Shown here in pieces: positions 17,114-32,696 of a stretch of DNA of 44,155 bases. A program made the position numbers and the translations under genes. Position 1 is the stretch's first letter. Each line of letters opens with the position of its first letter. The notes beneath the pieces are model-generated. The model saw only the letters and a program-made list of their open reading frames with translations. It was not told the origin of the DNA and did not search any database. The DNA comes from Ignavibacterium sp. (lineage in GTDB: Bacteria; Zixibacteria; MSB-5A5; GN15; PGXB01). Where the stretch lies: positions 1 through 44,155 of the forward strand of contig DYGG01000005.1 in NCBI GenBank assembly GCA_020724775.1. The letters run 5' to 3'.

Positions 17114-17851
17114 ATGTTTGAAAGCAGCGTAAGTTATTTGAGCGCCCTTCTCGCCGGAGGACTATCATTCGTATCGCCCTGTGTCCTGCCGCTGATTCCG
17201 GGATATATTTCTTTCATATCGGGAGTTTCGATGGAGGAACTGACCGACAAGGAAAAATCCTCAAAACATCTGTCGCGTATTATTGCCAATACAGTTTTCT
17301 TTGTGTTTGGATTTTCGGCGGTCTTCATTGCTCTGGGAGCCTCGGCATCCTTCATAGGCAAATGGCTTTTTCAGAATCTCGGGATATTCAACAAGGTAGC
17401 CGGCGTGATAATCTTTCTGCTGGGTCTGCATGTTACGGGACTGGTGCGAATAAAGGCGCTTAATTATGAGAAGCGGATTCATGCCGGACAGAAAAAATTC
17501 GGCATACTCGGCTCCGCTCTTATCGGGATGGCGTTTGCCTTCGGCTGGACTCCCTGTATCGGTCCTATTCTCGGCTCGATACTCACCCTCGCGGCAAACC
17601 AGGAAACTGTCAGCCAGGGAATTATTCTGCTATCGTTCTATTCGGCCGGTCTGGGGATACCGTTCATTTTAACGGCGCTGCTGTTCAATTTTCTGATCGG
17701 ATTTTTCGGATTTATCAAACGGCATTTTCGGGCGGTGGAGATCATTTCCGGCGGCTTATTAATGCTTATCGGCATTTTGATATTTTTCAATCTTCTGCAG
17801 CATATATCGAATTTCTTGCTTGATGCTTTCCCCGCTTTGAATGTTGGGTAA
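17114..17851 (+). CDS. ccdA: CcdA/DsbD-type thiol-disulfide transporter
   Basis: This 245-residue, six-helix membrane protein carries electrons from cytoplasmic thioredoxin across the inner membrane to periplasmic thiol proteins, for example those that reduce apocytochrome c. The two redox cysteines sit in the classical motifs SPCVLPLIPGY (Cys23) and GWTPCIGPIL (Cys148). There is no periplasmic domain, so it is the minimal CcdA form rather than full DsbD. Its Shine-Dalgarno sequence lies in a perfect hairpin (17087-17108), suggesting translational control. Partners could be the thioredoxin at 13974 and the CXXCH lipoprotein at 20848, but no ccm/Res cytochrome maturation genes are in the window. 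Confidence 0.93.
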   Translation: MFESSVSYLSALLAGGLSFVSPCVLPLIPGYISFISGVSMEELTDKEKSSKHLSRIIANTVFFVFGFSAVFIALGASASFIGKWLFQNLGIFNKVAGVIIFLLGLHVTGLVRIKALNYEKRIHAGQKKFGILGSALIGMAFAFGWTPCIGPILGSILTLAANQETVSQGIILLSFYSAGLGIPFILTALLFNFLIGFFGFIKRHFRAVEIISGGLLMLIGILIFFNLLQHISNFLLDAFPALNVG

Positions 17852-19437: not shown

Positions 19438-19466
19438 AAAGGCGGTCAGCGACCGCCTTTCTTTTT
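19438..19466. terminator. Strong bidirectional terminator
   Basis: A perfect 10-bp stem (19438-19447 with 19451-19460) with a 3-nt loop is followed by CTTTTT on the plus strand and by TTTTCTT on the minus strand. It lies between the converging ends of the creatininase gene and the OmpP1-type gene and serves both. Confidence 0.85.
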
Positions 19467-20844
19467 AGAATCGATAAGCCGCAGTCAGATAGAGCCGGCT
19501 GGTGGAAACGTCTTCATCAATAATCAAGTAATGGTCAACGGCCGGATTGCCGTTATAGACAGAGGCATAGAGAAAATCAGAATTTCGGCTGTAGGTCGTC
19601 CTCACCCACGCCAGGTCAATAGTCATCACCTGATCTACCAGGACTCCCAAACCAAAGGAATATCCATATCGGCTGTCGTTCTGAAACTCTTCCTTGAAAG
19701 GCAAGGGGTCGGTAAAAAAGCCGCTTCGGAGGGACAAACCTAAAGATGGGAAAACATATTCTCCGCCCACCCGGAAGCGGAGGGCATCTTTATAGTATCG
19801 CTTGACATTGTTATTTTCCTGTTCCATCAGGTCGTTATCGCCGTAGGAGAGCTGCGCCCAGTCGGTGTAGTCAACATCGGCAGCCAGTACGGCATTGTTA
19901 AAGCGGCCCAACGCCCCGGCCGAAAAAACGAATGGTCTTTTTACGCGGTACTCGACAAAGTCAAAGGATTCGCTTTCATCCACGGCGGTATCGGCATAAT
20001 AGTAATAGTCGTTGTAACTCTCTTCGACTTTTAAACTGACAGGGGTTTCCATTGCCAAGCCGATTCCCAGATAAGGGGACAGTTGCATTGCTAGCCCCAA
20101 TTTGGCGCCGAACCCGAGATATTTGTCTTCAATATAGGTCTGTTTCCGATATATAAAAGCGTTAGCCGAATCGAGATTATATTCCCAGTTATATTCGTGC
20201 TTCCCGGTGTAGAGAAGCGCCGTTCCACCAAATGAAATATTGGGAGAGAGGTCGACACCGAATCCGAAGCCCCATTGATATAATCCTCCTGATTGGAACT
20301 CGGAACCGGAGGCGGCGATATCGTCAAGACCATTTACGTCGCGATGGTACATCTTAAAGGTGCGGTCAAAATCAGCCACGCGCGCCATACCGAATCCGAA
20401 AACCAGAGCGCCGCGGTATGTGGGATAAGGTACGGTTACCAGCGCCGTGTTGATTCGGGTGTTGCTACGATTATCTTTTGCGGTGCCGGATACTGGAGAA
20501 TACCCCTCAAACCGACCCGGATAAATATCGACGGTCGGGATGACACTATTGCGATCAACAACTTTACGGATATTTCTTATCGATGACTCATCGTTGAATT
20601 TCTGATTGGACATTCCGAGGTTGAACTCAATCCGCGGGATACGGGCAAGATTCGCCGGATTGTAGAACAGGGAAGCGCCGTCAATTGACATCAGACCGGT
20701 GCCGCCCATAGCCATTTGGCGGGCGCCGTATCCAAAGAAATTGCCGGCGGTGATTTCTTCAACACTCTCGATATAATCGGCTTGAACCACAGCCGGGACC
20801 AAGTAAAAAAGCAAGAACGTAAGGCAAATAGACACTGATTTCAT
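19465..20844 (-). CDS. OmpP1/FadL/TodX-type outer membrane beta-barrel protein
   Basis: The 459-residue protein has a signal peptide (about 1-22, cleavage after VVQA). The mature N-terminus contains FFGYGARQMAMGGTG and DGASLFYNPANLA, the pattern of FadL/OmpP1/TodX and PorV-like barrels, in which the N-terminus plugs the pore. Repeated amphipathic strands follow, ending in the terminal Phe (YLTAAYRF) recognised by the Bam machinery. Such proteins usually import hydrophobic compounds; in FCB bacteria related proteins (PorV) serve in type IX secretion. No type IX genes are near. It is the last gene of a minus-strand operon with the CXXCH lipoprotein 3 nt upstream. Confidence 0.82.
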   Translation of the reverse strand: MKSVSICLTFLLFYLVPAVVQADYIESVEEITAGNFFGYGARQMAMGGTGLMSIDGASLFYNPANLARIPRIEFNLGMSNQKFNDESSIRNIRKVVDRNSVIPTVDIYPGRFEGYSPVSGTAKDNRSNTRINTALVTVPYPTYRGALVFGFGMARVADFDRTFKMYHRDVNGLDDIAASGSEFQSGGLYQWGFGFGVDLSPNISFGGTALLYTGKHEYNWEYNLDSANAFIYRKQTYIEDKYLGFGAKLGLAMQLSPYLGIGLAMETPVSLKVEESYNDYYYYADTAVDESESFDFVEYRVKRPFVFSAGALGRFNNAVLAADVDYTDWAQLSYGDNDLMEQENNNVKRYYKDALRFRVGGEYVFPSLGLSLRSGFFTDPLPFKEEFQNDSRYGYSFGLGVLVDQVMTIDLAWVRTTYSRNSDFLYASVYNGNPAVDHYLIIDEDVSTSRLYLTAAYRF

Positions 20845-20847
20845 ACT

Positions 20848-21384
20848 CTATTCCCTTCCGCCACGGCGAGGCGCCTTTTTTCCGGAATCGGAGTTATCCT
20901 TCTGCTTATCGTCGCTCGGCTTGGATTGGGGTGGGTCGCCGGGTGTGCCCGGTTTGGTCCCCGATGAGCCACCTGATGCCGGCGGATTGGTGCCCTGAAA
21001 GGACGGAATCACGCTGGTAGGGCTGGTATATGGGGGACGGAGGGCATCACGACGAACCGCTTTTTCCCCTTCTGATGGTCGCGGGGAGACGGCGTCATCA
21101 TCGCGGTACTTTCGGTCGCCGTCATACCAGTAATAGTCCCACCACCAGGGGTAGGCGTAGTATCGTCCCCAACGAGGGGTACTCCACCAGTAGTCAGGAT
21201 AATGGCCATAGAAATATCCGTACGGATATTCGTGATAATCGGTATGGCAATTAAGGCAGTTATTCTGGTAATCGTGCGCGGTATAACTCTCATCGGTGGT
21301 CGGATGTTTTAAGACCGTGTAACACCCGATGAAAGTGAAAACGACTACGCTCAAAGGTATCAGGAGGGTAATAGTGCGTCGCAT
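20848..21384 (-). CDS. Lipoprotein with one CXXCH motif and a Tyr/Trp-rich segment
   Basis: The 178-residue product starts with a lipoprotein signal peptide and lipobox ending at Cys21 (FTFIGC). A single CLNCH motif at 43-47 matches the covalent haem c attachment site. Residues 50-87 are extraordinarily aromatic (21 of 38 are Tyr, Trp or Phe, with His51 and His61). The second half is a Pro/Gly/Ser/Lys-rich disordered tail ending in RRGGRE. The ATG has GGAGG about 10 nt upstream. A mono-haem lipoprotein anchored in the outer membrane is the simplest reading, but CXXCH in so short a protein could instead bind a metal or be accidental. It lies between two barrel genes. No homologue is recognised. 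Confidence 0.7.
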   Translation of the reverse strand: MRRTITLLIPLSVVVFTFIGCYTVLKHPTTDESYTAHDYQNNCLNCHTDYHEYPYGYFYGHYPDYWWSTPRWGRYYAYPWWWDYYWYDGDRKYRDDDAVSPRPSEGEKAVRRDALRPPYTSPTSVIPSFQGTNPPASGGSSGTKPGTPGDPPQSKPSDDKQKDNSDSGKKAPRRGGRE

Positions 21385-21404
21385 TTATCTCAAACCTCCG
21401 AGGG

Positions 21405-22196
21405 CTAAAAGTATTCGAGGTACCGGAAGCGGAGTCCGCGGCCAAAAGAACTGGTATCGCGTCGGTTGTTGAGGAGGTTCTCAAAGACCGCCTCCATTTC
21501 CAGATTATCGGCAAAAAGCCATTTCAATCCGATATTAAAGTAGCCCCGTCCCTTGCCGAAAGATGAGCCGGATTTGTCATCATTAAGCGCCATATCATAC
21601 TCCACAGTCATCCCGACATTGTAACTGAACTGGGTGTCAAAGCCGAAAAAGACCGAGGGGTCCTTGTCTTTATCGACTTCATGTTCCAAGGAGTAATTGA
21701 CTCCGAAATGAGCGCCCATGGCCCAGTTGTAATAGTAAAAAGACCGGCTGAGAACGGCGTAAAACCCTTTTGATTTGTAGGTGAATCGTTTCCAGTCCTC
21801 GTGATATGAACCATATCCTTCGGATGAAAATCCGAGCGCCAGCGCCGGCATGTAGTACTGCTCATCGATGATACGGAGTTTGAGGTTAAATTCAACGCTG
21901 GGGTGCCAGTCCGGATCGGTTTCCGAGATAACCCGGTCAGCCCCATACGAGGCGCCGATCATAAAATGGTCGGTCAGCCCGATAGTGGTACCGCTCTGAA
22001 TCCCGCCATTTGCCTGCACTCTCAAAATGACATCAAAAGTCCCGCGCGGCAGAGTCCCGGCCGTTGGGGCATTAATCAAGTAACGCAGGGGAATCTCGTA
22101 ATTGGCTTTACGGTCCCGCCGCTGCGCTTCGGCGGTTGAAAAAGTCATCGCACACAGCGCTACTACAAGCGCCGTTGTTCTTAAAGATTGACGCAT
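21405..22196 (-). CDS. Predicted outer membrane beta-barrel protein
   Basis: The 263-residue protein has a Sec signal peptide (MRQSLRTTALVVALCAM, cleavage after AEA at about 24) followed by alternating amphipathic strands, many aromatic girdle residues and a C-terminal Phe (RFRYLEYF). Blocks such as PTAGTLPRGTFDV and KSKGFYAVLSR resemble those in YjbH-type and other uncharacterised barrels of diderm bacteria. I chose the ATG at 22194-22196 because GGAGGG lies 4-5 nt upstream; an in-frame upstream extension of 20 residues is charged and would bury the signal peptide. It is first in the three-gene envelope operon. Function unknown. Confidence 0.75.
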   Translation of the reverse strand: MRQSLRTTALVVALCAMTFSTAEAQRRDRKANYEIPLRYLINAPTAGTLPRGTFDVILRVQANGGIQSGTTIGLTDHFMIGASYGADRVISETDPDWHPSVEFNLKLRIIDEQYYMPALALGFSSEGYGSYHEDWKRFTYKSKGFYAVLSRSFYYYNWAMGAHFGVNYSLEHEVDKDKDPSVFFGFDTQFSYNVGMTVEYDMALNDDKSGSSFGKGRGYFNIGLKWLFADNLEMEAVFENLLNNRRDTSSFGRGLRFRYLEYF

Positions 22197-22237
22197 CCTA
22201 CCCTCCATGATAAGTGAGCAATCTTTCATTTGGGGCG

Positions 22238-22266
22238 ATAATACCTTTTTAACCATACCGTGGCAA
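22238..22266 (-). promoter_or_regulatory. Promoter of the barrel-CXXCH lipoprotein-barrel operon
   Basis: On the minus strand TTGCCA (22261-22266) precedes TATTAT (22238-22243) with a 17-nt spacer. The predicted start near 22231 leaves a 35-nt leader containing GGAGGG before the ATG at 22196. Confidence 0.6.
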
Positions 22267-26604: not shown

Positions 26605-27285
26605 ATGATTAAAACAGATGAAATCGCCGGATACTTCCGCTCCCACGATTGGGGAAAGAGCCACCGCAGATTGCGGATGCTGAGTTTTCTTTCGGCATCA
26701 ATCGCCATCGGCAAAAATGACCTGACTACAGAAATAATGTATTGTCTTAAGAAGTACAAAGTCCCTCAGTCCGCTATTTATGAAACGATTCTTCAGAGTT
26801 ATCTGTTTCTGGGCTTTCCCAAAATGATCGAAGCTGCAATCTGCTTCGGAGAGGTTTTCGGGCAGAAGAAGAATACCCGGCCGGTAAAAGGATATTCATC
26901 CCAGGAGTCTGAAAGATGGTACCGGATGGGGTATGCGCTCTGTCAAAGAGTCTATGGCAAGAATTTCCGGCTACTGGAGCAGAGATTCAGCCGTCTTTCG
27001 CCGGAGCTCTTTCGCTGGATGGTGATAGAAGGGTATGGCAAGGTTCTCTCACGTCCGGGGCTGTCGCAGACGGAAAGAGAACTGGCCGAAGTAGCGGCGC
27101 TGATTGCGGAGGGCCGGGAACGGCAATTGATTTCGCATCTCATAGGGAGCCTGAATGTTGGCGCCGACATCCGGCTGCTGAGGGAAGTGGCGCATGATAT
27201 CGCGCCTCTGGTGGGAGTGATATCGAGCCGACGAGCCGATAAAACTATTGATATGGTCGAAAAGAAGTATGCGGCTGAAAAGTAA
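26605..27285 (+). CDS. AhpD/carboxymuconolactone decarboxylase-like protein lacking CXXC
   Basis: The 226-residue protein looks like a two-repeat CMD-family helical protein. The first repeat (about 25-85) has EIMYCLKKYKVPQSAIYETI and FLGFPKMIEAA; the second (about 105-215) has PELFRWMVIEGYG, RPGLSQTERELAEVAALIAE and QLISHLIGSLNVGA, which match the general CMD pattern. The CXXC of peroxidatic AhpD proteins is absent, so a decarboxylase-like or non-enzymatic role is more likely; this rests on visual comparison. I prefer the ATG at 26605 because AGGA lies 4 nt upstream; an in-frame TTG at 26578 would add nine residues. The gene overlaps tamB by 17 bp. Confidence 0.65.
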   Translation: MIKTDEIAGYFRSHDWGKSHRRLRMLSFLSASIAIGKNDLTTEIMYCLKKYKVPQSAIYETILQSYLFLGFPKMIEAAICFGEVFGQKKNTRPVKGYSSQESERWYRMGYALCQRVYGKNFRLLEQRFSRLSPELFRWMVIEGYGKVLSRPGLSQTERELAEVAALIAEGRERQLISHLIGSLNVGADIRLLREVAHDIAPLVGVISSRRADKTIDMVEKKYAAEK

Positions 27286-30200
27286 ACTGCTGTTAATTCT
27301 ATTCTCCTCTGTTTTCGTTCTGGTACTGGGCCTATACATTGCGTTTTTTCATCTGGGCTTGCTGGAATATCTGGTCAATCGTCAATTACGAAACATTATT
27401 GCGGGGACACTTCCGCTCAAAGTCAACATCGGAGATATCGGTGGCGATTACTTTCGGGAATTGTTAATTTCGGATATTCGTGTCGATTATGATGATGGCA
27501 CCTCTCGCTATAATATGGCAATCATTCCTAACCTGCGGCTTCGATACAATCCGTTGGATTTCTGGCGGGGGGTCATTAGGTTTGAGAAAATTGTCATCGA
27601 CTCGGCGCAATTCACCTTAACGCGGGCGTCTGATGGCCGCTGGCTGGTGCCTACTCCGAATGTAAAGGGAACCGGAGATAAAACAGCGATATCCTTTGAG
27701 GTCCAGGAATTGGAGTTAGCCAGCCTCAGATTCCGGATGATGCGTCCGGAGGACAGCCTGATTTTCGACCGGATTACTCTAAAAGCGGCCATTGAAGCCC
27801 GTGAGAATACTTATGCCCTCCGCCTTGATACCCTGAGTTACCGCTCCTCGGAACGGAAGTTCAACATTAATTATGCCAGGGGAAAGGCGTCACTGACCGG
27901 CAGCCATCTGATGCTTCAAGACCTGGTACTGAAAACTGATTCGTCAGATTTGACTCTGGGCGGGCAGATGACTTTATCGCACACGCTGTCGTGGAGGATG
28001 ATACTTCAGGCACGAAAACTGAATCTCCACGAAGGATTGAGTTTTATCGATGTAAATTTGAGCGGGAATGTCTCCGCGGAGGGAGAGGTTGCTTATCAGG
28101 ACAGGAAGATTTCCGGGAAAGTGAAAATCAGCGGCATCTTTGAGCACCGTCTCTTTGATTCCTTAATGGTGGCGTTCCGGTATTTCGATAAAGAACTATC
28201 CCTGGACACTCTTTCAGGGAAGATTCTCAACGGCACCGCCATCGAAGGTCGCGGAGGTATCGACCTGGGCATCAAGCCGGAGCGGTATCATCTCAAAGCA
28301 AAGATTCGCGGATTCAATCTGAATAACCTGGTGAGCGATACATATGAAACCAATCTTAACGGAGATATCGACTTAAGCGGCAGCGGACTGAAAGACGAGA
28401 GTCTTGTTCTTGACGTAATTGTTGACCTTGGCGAATCGTGGTTTGATGAATATCATGCCTATGAATTAAACGGCGCCATGGCGATTACGACCGACAGTAT
28501 TCGCTTTCTGGACAATTTTGTAATTCACTATAAAGACAACTATTTTAATGTTTCGGGGAGGCTGGATTATAGTGGTGATATCGACCTTGATGGCACCACC
28601 CGGTTTGAAGACCTTTCGGCGTTCAACCGGCAGACTTTTATTGAAAGATTGGGTGGGCGCGCCGACCTCTCTTTTAAGGTCACCGGCGCGGTTCGCAATC
28701 CTGATATCGCCGGAGAGATATCTTCAGACTCGCTCTGGCTCTATGATGTATATTCCCATCAGGCACAAATAGATTTTGCCTTAAAACATTTCCTTTATGA
28801 CCGAGATGGTTTCGTAAACGCCGCGTTGTTCAATGGGTCAGCGTACGAAATTCCATTCGATACTATAACTCTGTCAATGGCGGTGGATTCCCAGTACGTG
28901 GCATTTGAGAAGGCCCATTTCCGCAATCAATTTTCTGAAGCTGATAGCCGAGGAAGTCTGGATTACCTGTCGTACCCACAGGTTCTTGAGTTAGATAGCT
29001 TGAACCTTCGCTTGATGGAACTGAATGTAGAAAACCAGGATAAAATCATCTTAAGAATAGATTCCACCGGCTATGACATAAAGCAATGCCGACTGCTTCG
29101 CCCTCAGGGCGCTCTGGAAGGGAAGGGCCGGGTTAACTACGATGATACCTGGGATCTGTCAATTGATGCCGAGAGATTGAATATCAAACCGCTGGTAGCG
29201 CTTGTCAGCGACAGCCTGGATCTGGATGGAGTCATGCATGGCAGCGGAAGACTGGCCGGCTCTTTCGACAACAGCCGGATAGAATTTATTGGCGCCATCG
29301 ATTCACTTCAGTATGAAGGATTGGTCCTGGGGGATATGTACATAAATTGCGATTATCGCGACAGCATGATATATATTGACTCCATCGCTCTCAACAGCCA
29401 TACCGGATATTATCTCGCGCGGGGTATAATGCCTATTAATCTGAACCTGGCCTCCGATGAGCCGCTTTGGCTCGAGGAAGAGCAAAATATCGATATAACG
29501 GCGGTAGATGTCCGTTTGGATATGGTGAGCCTGCTTCTCAACGATGTGGAGCAGTTGACCGGTGATTTCAGGGCTGATTTCAGGTTGAGCGGGACACCGG
29601 TGAAACCAAAAATCGACGGCAAGGTGATGATTCAAAAAGGTCGGCTAAAACTCTTTGACCTGGTTGACCCGATAGAAAATATAGACCTAAAGATGAGCAT
29701 GAAAGACCGGGTGATAACGATAGACAGTGTCACCGGCGTCTGTCGCGGAAACAAAAAGAAACCGGGGCTGATCAGTGGCGGCGGAACGATTGTAATAAAT
29801 GCAATCGACCAGTTCGACTATGATGTGAGGCTCAAAGCAAACGACTTTCCGGCGGTATATGAACTGGGAGATATTAATGCCGTAGTCGTCGCCGATTTGC
29901 AAGTCCGGGGTCTGACTCCCCCAACCGTCACCGGAAATGTTATACTGCAATCGGCCGTTTATCGGGAAAATTTCGCCAGAGAAAATGAAGGCTGGATAAT
30001 GCTGACCTCGCTACAGGGCGACCAGACCTGGGACCTGGACCTCGATGTTGAAATATCTTCAAATCTCTGGATAAAGAACGACGATATCGATGCCGAGTTT
30101 GCCGGGGAAATCAATTTTATCAGAGAGAAAGGCGTCTATCGATATATCGGCTCTCTGGAAATATTGCGAGGAAAAGGTTTCCTGGCAGACAGGACTTTTC

Positions 30201-30799
30201 GAATCGAAACGGGAAGCACCATCAGTTATGAGGATATTGAATATCCCAACCCGCGCCTGGATATTTACGCGGTGACACAGATAAGAGGGTCGGCCACCAG
30301 CCAGACCGGTCAGAATGAAGTCTCCAATTTTGATTTACGAGTCCATGTGACGGGGACACTGGATGAGCCGGTTATCAGCGCCGCCGAGGGGTCACAATTC
30401 TCGACCGAAGAGATAATACCGCTGATTTTCACCAATTATTATCAATCATCGGGAGAAGGTTCGAGAGGAACCTCGGAGAGGGTCAGCGACCGAATTACCA
30501 GCGGACTTTCCGGGTACCTGAGCACGCAATTCACGCAAATCGGCTCCCGGAGCCTGGGGGTGGAGACATTTGAGATTGATCCGGTTTACGGAGATAAATT
30601 CGACCCATTGGGGACACGTCTGACGGTCGGATTTTATACCCATCCCAATCTCTATATATACGGCCGTTCGGCGATCTCCGGAGTGGCCGGTCAGGAGGTA
30701 GGGTTCGAATATCGCCTTAAGCGAAATCTGCTGCTTGAAGGACGACGCGACGACGAGGACTTGTACCATCTTATCTTGAATCTTTACTGGGACTATTAA
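27269..30799 (+). CDS. tamB: TamB-like envelope assembly/lipid transport protein
   Basis: The 1176-residue protein has an N-terminal membrane anchor (about 6-27), a long stretch of repeating beta strands typical of the AsmA/TamB/VPS13-like groove, and a C-terminal DUF490 domain with SLEILRGKGFLADRTFRIE and YGRSAISGVAGQEVGFEYRL. TamB-type proteins bridge inner and outer membrane and are implicated in phospholipid transport and outer-membrane protein assembly with an Omp85 partner. The Omp85 gene starts one nucleotide after this stop, reproducing the tamA/tamB pairing in reversed order. I chose the ATG at 27269; a TTG at 27248 would add seven residues. No extra cytoplasmic domain is present. 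Confidence 0.92.
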   Translation: MRLKSKLLLILFSSVFVLVLGLYIAFFHLGLLEYLVNRQLRNIIAGTLPLKVNIGDIGGDYFRELLISDIRVDYDDGTSRYNMAIIPNLRLRYNPLDFWRGVIRFEKIVIDSAQFTLTRASDGRWLVPTPNVKGTGDKTAISFEVQELELASLRFRMMRPEDSLIFDRITLKAAIEARENTYALRLDTLSYRSSERKFNINYARGKASLTGSHLMLQDLVLKTDSSDLTLGGQMTLSHTLSWRMILQARKLNLHEGLSFIDVNLSGNVSAEGEVAYQDRKISGKVKISGIFEHRLFDSLMVAFRYFDKELSLDTLSGKILNGTAIEGRGGIDLGIKPERYHLKAKIRGFNLNNLVSDTYETNLNGDIDLSGSGLKDESLVLDVIVDLGESWFDEYHAYELNGAMAITTDSIRFLDNFVIHYKDNYFNVSGRLDYSGDIDLDGTTRFEDLSAFNRQTFIERLGGRADLSFKVTGAVRNPDIAGEISSDSLWLYDVYSHQAQIDFALKHFLYDRDGFVNAALFNGSAYEIPFDTITLSMAVDSQYVAFEKAHFRNQFSEADSRGSLDYLSYPQVLELDSLNLRLMELNVENQDKIILRIDSTGYDIKQCRLLRPQGALEGKGRVNYDDTWDLSIDAERLNIKPLVALVSDSLDLDGVMHGSGRLAGSFDNSRIEFIGAIDSLQYEGLVLGDMYINCDYRDSMIYIDSIALNSHTGYYLARGIMPINLNLASDEPLWLEEEQNIDITAVDVRLDMVSLLLNDVEQLTGDFRADFRLSGTPVKPKIDGKVMIQKGRLKLFDLVDPIENIDLKMSMKDRVITIDSVTGVCRGNKKKPGLISGGGTIVINAIDQFDYDVRLKANDFPAVYELGDINAVVVADLQVRGLTPPTVTGNVILQSAVYRENFARENEGWIMLTSLQGDQTWDLDLDVEISSNLWIKNDDIDAEFAGEINFIREKGVYRYIGSLEILRGKGFLADRTFRIETGSTISYEDIEYPNPRLDIYAVTQIRGSATSQTGQNEVSNFDLRVHVTGTLDEPVISAAEGSQFSTEEIIPLIFTNYYQSSGEGSRGTSERVSDRITSGLSGYLSTQFTQIGSRSLGVETFEIDPVYGDKFDPLGTRLTVGFYTHPNLYIYGRSAISGVAGQEVGFEYRLKRNLLLEGRRDDEDLYHLILNLYWDY

Positions 30800-30800
30800 T

Positions 30801-32696
30801 ATGGGGCGAGGCGCAAAGGCTGTTTTGTTCCTGATTATCCTGGTCGCGATACAATCGTTGGGAGCCAGTACCGAATCTGATTATCTCAATCGATGGCTTC
30901 GCCGTAAGCCCTATATTCAAAGCATCGAAATCACCGGGAACCGCTTTTTCAGTGATGGGGAGATTAGACGCTCGCTCTTTTCCCGCACTGACGACTTTTT
31001 GCGAAGAATTAAGTCTGACCGACGTATCCGGGTCCAGCGCGAGACCCCGTTGCGGGACACCTCGGAGATAAAATATCTCTATTTGACCTCAGGTTTTCTC
31101 GGTGTAAAAGTGCAGGAGCAGTTTGTGCCTATTCTTCCCGATTCCAACGCTTTGGTTAAGATTGATATTCATGAAGGGCGAAGATTTTACTATTCAAATC
31201 TGAAAGTCCACGGAGATTATCCGGAAACGTTCAACAAGGATGTAAATCGGGTAATTGCCCGGTTCAAGAAAAAGGAGGCGGTAGACCCTTTCCGGCTGAA
31301 ACAGGCGACGTATGACTTGAAATCTTCATTTGCCAACAAAGGGTATCCCTATGCCCTTGTTGACTTCAAGGTAGATACCACGGCCGAGAGCGACCAGTCA
31401 GAAGTGATATTCAACATACAGTCAGACTCACTGGTTCACTTTGGAGAACTGGAAATCGTGGGGAACGAGAAATATGCTTCAGGGAGTGTTCGCCGGGAGA
31501 TTACGTTTCGTCCCGGCGATATCTACAGCCGCAGCAAGATTATCGATTCGCAGAAACGGCTTTTGAGCACTGGCAATTACCTGACTATGCAACTTTACAG
31601 CAATACGGAAGATACTCTGGATACAGCCCGCCGACTTAAGCCGGGAATAAGACTTACTCTGAAAGAGAAAAATCCGCATTACGTATCTATAAAAACCGGC
31701 GCCAGTCAGGACCGATACAAAGATTTGATATGGGGGCTTTCGGTATCCTGGGGGAAAAGAAACCTGTTGGGGTCACGACTCCTGGAACTCTCCGCCTATT
31801 CTGGGTTTGTGGTATTTACTGAATGGCGGGTGCTCTACCATAATTATCGTGCCCGCTTCACGGAACCGTGGTTTCTGGGAATCAGGATGCCTATGACGCT
31901 TACTGGAGAAATCTCGCCTGGGGTACGCTCCGCCGTCCAGCCATATAGAATTCAAACCTGGTCCATTTCACTGGAGACTTTCCGGGAATTCAATCAAAAA
32001 CTTAAGATTACCACCGGGCTGGAATATCGGTCAGTCAATATCTATGGACTCAGTCCGGAAGAAGAGATCTTGTATCGTCAGGATAAGGGGATAAATGTCA
32101 GACGGATTTTCTATAACAGCGTCGTTCGCGACAGTCGCAACAACCCTTTTGTGCCGGTGACCGGCTCGATGAGTATTCTGAAAATCGAGTATGCCGGTGG
32201 GATATTAAAGGGAGATGACAATTTCTACCGCGGCGAGGCAAGTTGGTCACGTTATCAAAAAGTCTGGCCCGGGTGGATTTCGGCGTCACGACTGAAAATG
32301 GGGTATGTCAAGGAGTTCGGGGATTCCAGGGATGTTCCAATTGATGCTCGCTTTTATGCCGGCGGGGCAAATAGTATCAGAGGGTACGCCGAAAACGACC
32401 TGGGACCGAGGCTTGCCGATGGCACTCCCAGCGGCGCCAATTTGCTTTTGATTGCCAATCAGGAGTTTCGCTTCCCCCTGATTGGAAAATTGTGGGGGTC
32501 ATTCTTTGCCGACGCTGGAAACGGCTTTTTCAAGTTGGAAGATATTAAATTGAGCCGCGTGGCTTTTTCTTATGGACTCGGATTTCAGTTTATCTCGCCG
32601 GCCGGTCCCATTCGCCTTGATTATGCCCGTCGAATAGACACCGATGAAACCGACCCGGGTTATCGCTTCCATTTCACAATTCTTTATGCTTTCTAA
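30801..32696 (+). CDS. Omp85 family outer membrane protein (TamA/BamA type)
   Basis: The 631-residue protein has a signal peptide (1 to about 22), three POTRA domains (about 36-105, 107-185, 190-280; for example IQSIEITGNRFFSDGEIRRS and FGELEIVGNEKYASGSVRRE) and a C-terminal 16-strand barrel (about 290-631) ending in Phe. The lid-loop signature IRGY is present (Arg527-Tyr529). BamA usually has five POTRA domains and about 800 residues; three POTRA domains and the adjacent tamB gene favour a TamA-like role. It would insert or help assemble outer-membrane proteins or partner TamB in lipid traffic. No signal of lipidation is seen at the N-terminus. Confidence 0.92.
   Translation: MGRGAKAVLFLIILVAIQSLGASTESDYLNRWLRRKPYIQSIEITGNRFFSDGEIRRSLFSRTDDFLRRIKSDRRIRVQRETPLRDTSEIKYLYLTSGFLGVKVQEQFVPILPDSNALVKIDIHEGRRFYYSNLKVHGDYPETFNKDVNRVIARFKKKEAVDPFRLKQATYDLKSSFANKGYPYALVDFKVDTTAESDQSEVIFNIQSDSLVHFGELEIVGNEKYASGSVRREITFRPGDIYSRSKIIDSQKRLLSTGNYLTMQLYSNTEDTLDTARRLKPGIRLTLKEKNPHYVSIKTGASQDRYKDLIWGLSVSWGKRNLLGSRLLELSAYSGFVVFTEWRVLYHNYRARFTEPWFLGIRMPMTLTGEISPGVRSAVQPYRIQTWSISLETFREFNQKLKITTGLEYRSVNIYGLSPEEEILYRQDKGINVRRIFYNSVVRDSRNNPFVPVTGSMSILKIEYAGGILKGDDNFYRGEASWSRYQKVWPGWISASRLKMGYVKEFGDSRDVPIDARFYAGGANSIRGYAENDLGPRLADGTPSGANLLLIANQEFRFPLIGKLWGSFFADAGNGFFKLEDIKLSRVAFSYGLGFQFISPAGPIRLDYARRIDTDETDPGYRFHFTILYAF

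Follow-up and report, generated by a model that had tools for sequence, protein, structure and literature searches.

A small lipoprotein of an unnamed family and the FadL-type outer-membrane barrel encoded beside it form a real and old pair, found in several groups of uncultured bacteria. In most lineages the lipoprotein carries a candidate haem-binding CXXCH motif, which is absent from several others that keep the gene set. The pair lies in the 44,155-nucleotide stretch of DNA analysed here (the window), on contig C15 of a 3.07-Mb genome of Candidatus Zixiibacteriota. On balance, we favour the interpretation that it belongs to an outer-membrane assembly in which a FadL/BamG-family barrel would function with a dedicated lipoprotein, one that in most cases would also be a bis-His, one-haem mini-cytochrome. 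At heart, the pair is probably not an electron wire.

As the initial annotation had it, three consecutive open reading frames on the minus strand encode a small barrel, the lipoprotein and the FadL-type barrel, in this order (Table 1). They are likely to constitute one operon, because the gaps between them are of 20 bp and 3 bp and because 4-bp overlaps are frequent in the gene sets of relatives. The best start for the small-barrel gene is at 22196, after GGAGGGTAGG; a longer open reading frame from 22256 was discarded as unsupported, most orthologues starting near 22196. The single promoter of the initial annotation is at most putative: a sigma-70-like site that matches the consensus at 10 of 12 positions is found at 22266-22238, but sites of this type are not enriched over shuffled sequence (5 found, 4.4 expected).

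Table 1. Features of the three-gene set (window coordinates)
Feature	Position	Strand	Remarks
Small 12-strand outer-membrane barrel, signal peptide	21405..22196	-	263 aa; AlphaFold pLDDT 80.4; VIA-align Z 17 to FapF and KdgM
Lipoprotein, unnamed family	20848..21384	-	178 aa; GCYT lipobox, His+7, CXXCH, Tyr/Trp-rich segment, disordered tail
Cys21 codon, lipid anchor (mature +1)	21322..21324	-	Lipobox ..FIGC; GCYT conserved
His27 codon (mature +7), candidate distal haem ligand	21304..21306	-	In 52/52 orthologues with CXXCH, 4/19 without
CXXCH, Cys43-Leu-Asn-Cys46-His47 (mature +23 to +27), candidate haem c site	21244..21258	-	
Aromatic segment, DY..YPYGYFYG.YPDYWW..PRWG.YYAYPWWWDYYWY	21124..21237	-	
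Basic C-terminal end, ..KKAPRRGGRE (KKxxRRGGR motif)	20851..20892	-	Conserved in kind in nearly all orthologues
FadL/OmpP1/BamG-family barrel, constant partner of the lipoprotein	19465..20844	-	459 aa; Toluene_X/FadL Pfam match
Terminator-like stem, 10 pairs	19438..19460		Between the converging FadL-type and creatininase genes

The product of 19465-20844 is a member of the Toluene_X/FadL family, scoring 42.3 bits with PF03349 against a gathering cut-off of 29.7. In the PDB, the FadL profile finds its best match in 9hiv_F (E 7e-13), which is BamG, the PDB title of 9hiv being BamADG of the B. thetaiotaomicron BAM; 9HIV is listed as BtBAM class 2 (PMC12578637). BamG is also the commonest NCBIfam match for all 22 members of the profile, although the window protein, with 78.1 bits, stays far below the equivalog cut-off of 250 (NF053685). 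The host genome encodes a second FadL/BamG-like barrel of equal BamG-likeness (79 bits) on contig C46 (L045:301-1800), and no lipoprotein of this family was seen beside it in the stretch that was read.

The FadL-type barrel could instead move a hydrophobic molecule into or out of the cell, the lipoprotein serving as its gate or as an accessory and the haem, where present, sensing or binding the cargo. The Toluene_X match above the cut-off speaks for this, as do TbuX and TodX, which come next among the PDB matches; against it, BamG, the nearest relative of known structure, has a lateral opening that its own N-terminal tail fills (PMC12611786), and no catabolic genes were recognised in the conserved neighbourhood. 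We regard a transport function as possible but rather doubtful.

The lipoprotein gave no match above noise in sequence searches of Pfam, NCBIfam and the PDB, and AlphaFold2 produced no confident fold for the mature protein alone (pLDDT 40). A magnetochrome-domain match obtained with one member of the family was set aside as too weak (E 0.036). The tail is long and of low complexity, with basic residues at its end. The family is unnamed, no description of it having been found in searches of the open-access literature, and its pairing resembles the theme of a FadL-family barrel with a lipoprotein partner. Two members depart from the common pattern. In the middle gene of G097 (L130), SFTV replaces CYTV at the lipid-anchor site, so that lipidation is not expected, and the operon is otherwise kept. 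The lipoprotein of G098 (family f11), at 125 aa, is a short one that has YYYDDDDC at its end and no basic tail; the triad of this genome is split over two contigs (L105 and L166), with two different FadL relatives.

The possibility, left by the initial annotation, that the three genes are never found together elsewhere is refuted by searches of related genomes. A search with the single lipoprotein sequence returned 20 relatives, all 20 accompanied by the same three genes in order, and the order 12-strand barrel, lipoprotein, FadL-type barrel recurs in 14 families of Zixiibacteriota. Of 132 genomes of this phylum searched with profiles, 124 had the small barrel, about 60 a close FadL orthologue and 49 the lipoprotein. 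Lipoprotein and FadL orthologue nevertheless occur together, since inspection of the gap between the barrel and FadL genes in families f6, f10, f15 and f16 revealed diverged GCYT lipoproteins that the first profile had largely missed. Thus, contig ends aside, genomes with the FadL orthologue have a GCYT lipoprotein gene between the FadL gene and that of the small barrel. The two form the tightest unit of the set: where one is found, so is the other, again with the exception of contig ends. The small barrel is less faithful. No lipoprotein was found beside it in more than 60 genomes, and families f3, f4, f7, f8 and f17 have it with neither the lipoprotein nor the FadL orthologue alongside.

A wider lipoprotein profile, run on 386 genomes, gave 14 matches outside the phylum, and the fetched locus includes a FadL relative for 13 of them. 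In 12 of these 13 cases, it lies within about 100 bp of the lipoprotein gene or overlaps it; in the remaining one (L178), it is about 3 kb away. These relatives mostly have E values of 1e-59 to 1e-123, L187 being a weak case (E 6e-27); inside the phylum, most FadL paralogues have values of 1e-20 to 1e-36. Several of the 14 loci also contain a relative of the small barrel, sometimes non-adjacent, and it is missing beside several pairs. Two matches were discarded: L098, a "Deltaproteobacteria" sequence with a chance PWWWSYYWW in a 2047-aa protein resembling alpha-2-macroglobulin, and G328/L185, excluded from the counts as it has no FadL neighbour and its histidine is out of register. The lipoprotein family defined here goes with a single clade of FadL/BamG-like barrels, and its uncultured bacterial hosts belong to more than one phylum.

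Conservation of the CXXCH motif in orthologues, on which the haem proposal of the initial annotation depended, held in part: the motif is kept in 52 of 71 lipoproteins from inside and outside the phylum, and several lineages lack it although they have the gene set. The motif of the window is not there by chance, because, in addition to this count, it is retained in 40 of the 55 genomes of the triad tree, across deep splits of the phylum. On that tree, a minimum of three changes in CXXCH is needed, in a subclade of f1, in f10 and in f6+f15+f16, and at least three supported lineages keep the lipoprotein-FadL pair without the motif. Its absence is not gene decay, because open reading frames, the lipobox (which only G097 has lost), the aromatic PWW motif and the basic tail are mostly preserved, consistently across several genomes of each lineage. 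Loss of the motif through loss of cytochrome c maturation was also considered and rejected, since phylum genomes that lack CXXCH in the lipoprotein keep PF01578 proteins. Such genomes are rich in CXXCH codon patterns, as in G096, with 563 against 190 in the control.

A second histidine also points to a haem. In c-type cytochromes, a CXXCH motif together with a second His suits bis-His ligation. In the alignment of 71 lipoproteins, a His occupies position +7 after the lipid-anchor Cys in all 52 proteins with CXXCH and in 4 of the 19 without, while the latter still keep Tyr+2 (18/19), Thr+3 (19/19) and Pro+8 (13/19). This pattern fits an axial haem ligand, because His+7 tracks CXXCH while its neighbours Tyr+2, Thr+3 and, mostly, Pro+8 persist. 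Inside the phylum, the association of CXXCH with His+7 has a Fisher p of 6e-9 when relatedness is ignored. On trees, where three independent pairs on starred branches differ in CXXCH and His+7, the sign test is not significant, and the covariation is therefore suggestive. Position +4 differs as well, being always Ile, Val, Met or Leu in the CXXCH proteins and Lys in 10 of the 19 others. The host genome contains the cytochrome assembly protein PF01578 and is rich in CXXCH (437 motif matches versus 121 in the control), so that the motif stands in an exported lipoprotein of an organism with cytochrome c maturation, as expected of a c-type cytochrome. Together, CXXCH and the conserved His+7 suggest a genuine c-type haem site. 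Elsewhere in this genome, on contig C4 (4979-7752, minus strand), about 35 CXXCH codon patterns in 2.8 kb suggest a very large multihaem cytochrome.

The same motif could be a structural disulphide or a metal site that binds no haem. Apart from the lipid anchor and the two Cys of the motif, nearly all CXXCH proteins of the phylum are free of Cys once mature, and no cytochrome fold or family was recognised, both of which would suit such a site. It would not account for the invariance of His47, the fifth residue of the motif, which matches that of the two Cys, or for the second, upstream His present in every case; we therefore consider a haem-free CXXCH unlikely.

The initial annotation saw in the three genes a possible minimal outer-membrane redox conduit, which would place a one-haem lipoprotein in or under a barrel, to carry electrons through the outer membrane in the manner of a split Cyc2. 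Cyc2 indeed provides a precedent, one haem and a porin being able to act as an outer-membrane oxidase (PMC8406198), and most lineages of the family keep both CXXCH and His+7; the host genome here is CXXCH-rich. Nevertheless, the gene set outlives the haem site in the three or more supported lineages mentioned above, which have cytochrome maturation and many cytochromes; the AXPXFAR[Q/K][T/Y] motif upstream of CXXCH that was defined for Cyc2 (PMC8406198) is absent from the lipoprotein alignment, and the fusion is absent too. Conduction as the function of the module is thus unsupported: it is not the shared function, because the set survives loss of the haem site where, inside the phylum, cytochrome maturation persists. 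We judge such a conduit quite improbable, and attach equally little likelihood to the bolder version, an unrecognised electron-transfer pair of the outer membrane in several bacterial groups, in which a lipid-anchored, one-haem bis-His mini-cytochrome would plug a FadL-type barrel as a split analogue of Cyc2, some lineages having reverted to a haem-free complex.

A gene for CcdA, at 17114-17851 on the opposite strand and 3 kb from the set, had been offered as a link to haem attachment. The adjacency is not specific. In most loci of family f4, CcdA, DUF2064 and creatininase genes follow the small barrel and there is no lipoprotein or FadL gene beside it, and in f12-f16, f18 and f19 the fetched flanks of the triad contain no CcdA. 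CcdA was therefore rejected as a member of the module; its position reflects old synteny and is no evidence for haem attachment to this lipoprotein. On the plus strand of the window, 27248-32696 encodes a TamB-domain protein (PF04357, 160 bits) and, immediately after it, a POTRA-repeat Omp85 protein, which scores 275 bits for BamA, just below the cut-off of 297. These genes, 5 kb away from the triad, make up a TAM/BAM-like pair, and in f8 (L141) a TamB-like gene also follows the small barrel.

In fold comparison, the AlphaFold model of the small barrel falls near FapF, KdgM, COG4313 and NanC, which fixes its fold class, not its function. The YjbH model of Pfam (PF06082) gives 25.4 bits against a cut-off of 24, over the first third of its 658 positions only. 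The barrel shares the 12-strand fold of FapF, its top Foldseek match (213 residues aligned, Z 17.6), and might accordingly be a polypeptide channel for surface secretion or anchoring, with the aromatic, low-complexity lipoprotein as cargo or surface anchor; this is improbable, as FapF is tied with KdgM (Z 17.1), no Fap amyloid genes were recognised nearby, and the barrel is often found without the lipoprotein, and several pairs outside the phylum without the barrel beside them.

We thus return to the outer-membrane assembly. Its conserved core would be the FadL/BamG-family barrel and its small dedicated lipoprotein, co-produced with the 12-strand barrel. If BamG-BamH is taken as the model, the lipoprotein probably attaches to the FadL-type barrel through its invariant N-terminal Cys-Tyr-Thr; the physical interaction itself we infer from gene order only. 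The aromatic segment and the disordered basic tail probably make additional contacts, with the barrel, lipid or the cell wall. In most lineages, including that of the window, the covariation would place one covalent haem c between His47 of CXXCH and His27, adding a function in redox or stability that lineages could give up while keeping the pair, and the shared, haem-independent role would be structural or assembly-related. Against this explanation stand the lack of a confident fold for the lipoprotein alone and of acidic residues after its lipid Cys, the few independent events underlying the covariation, and the distance of the FadL protein from the BamG cut-off. The occurrence of the same pair with and without the haem site, in host genomes that within the phylum are all capable of making cytochromes, amounts to a natural experiment.

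Among known systems, MtrCAB/MtoAB-type conduits resemble the set in that a barrel and a candidate c-type cytochrome share one operon. They differ from it in having about ten haems rather than one site and 26 strands rather than the approximately 12 of the small barrel and 14 of the FadL type; with one CXXCH and barrels of these two kinds, the set does not present the multihaem cytochrome inside a large barrel that is typical of Mtr systems. Cyc2 is closer, as it too combines one CXXCH with one outer-membrane barrel (PMC8406198); here, however, the genes are separate, the candidate cytochrome is lipid-anchored, the barrel is of the FadL and not the OprP type, and the haem site is dispensable. 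Should the lipoprotein, besides binding the barrel, also carry haem, it would count as a very small cytochrome of the outer membrane and offer a simple test case for one-haem surface redox.

The nearest parallel is with BamG-BamH and BamG2-BamH2, the latter a putative operon in B. theta (PMC12578637), which likewise associate a FadL-family barrel with a lipoprotein of highly conserved N-terminus (PMC12578637, PMC12611786), BamG being the nearest solved structure to the FadL barrel of the window. The FadL orthologue is not a universal BAM subunit, as it was not found in f3, f4, f7, f8 and f17. Unlike BamH, the lipoprotein is small, with no confident fold and no library family, and has CXXCH and His+7. 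Surface lipoproteins of Bacteroidota have at least two acidic residues among the six after the lipid Cys (PMC12578637); that of the window, with C-YTVLKH, lacks this export signal. If the lipoprotein binds the barrel, the pair would extend the BamG-BamH idea beyond Bacteroidota.
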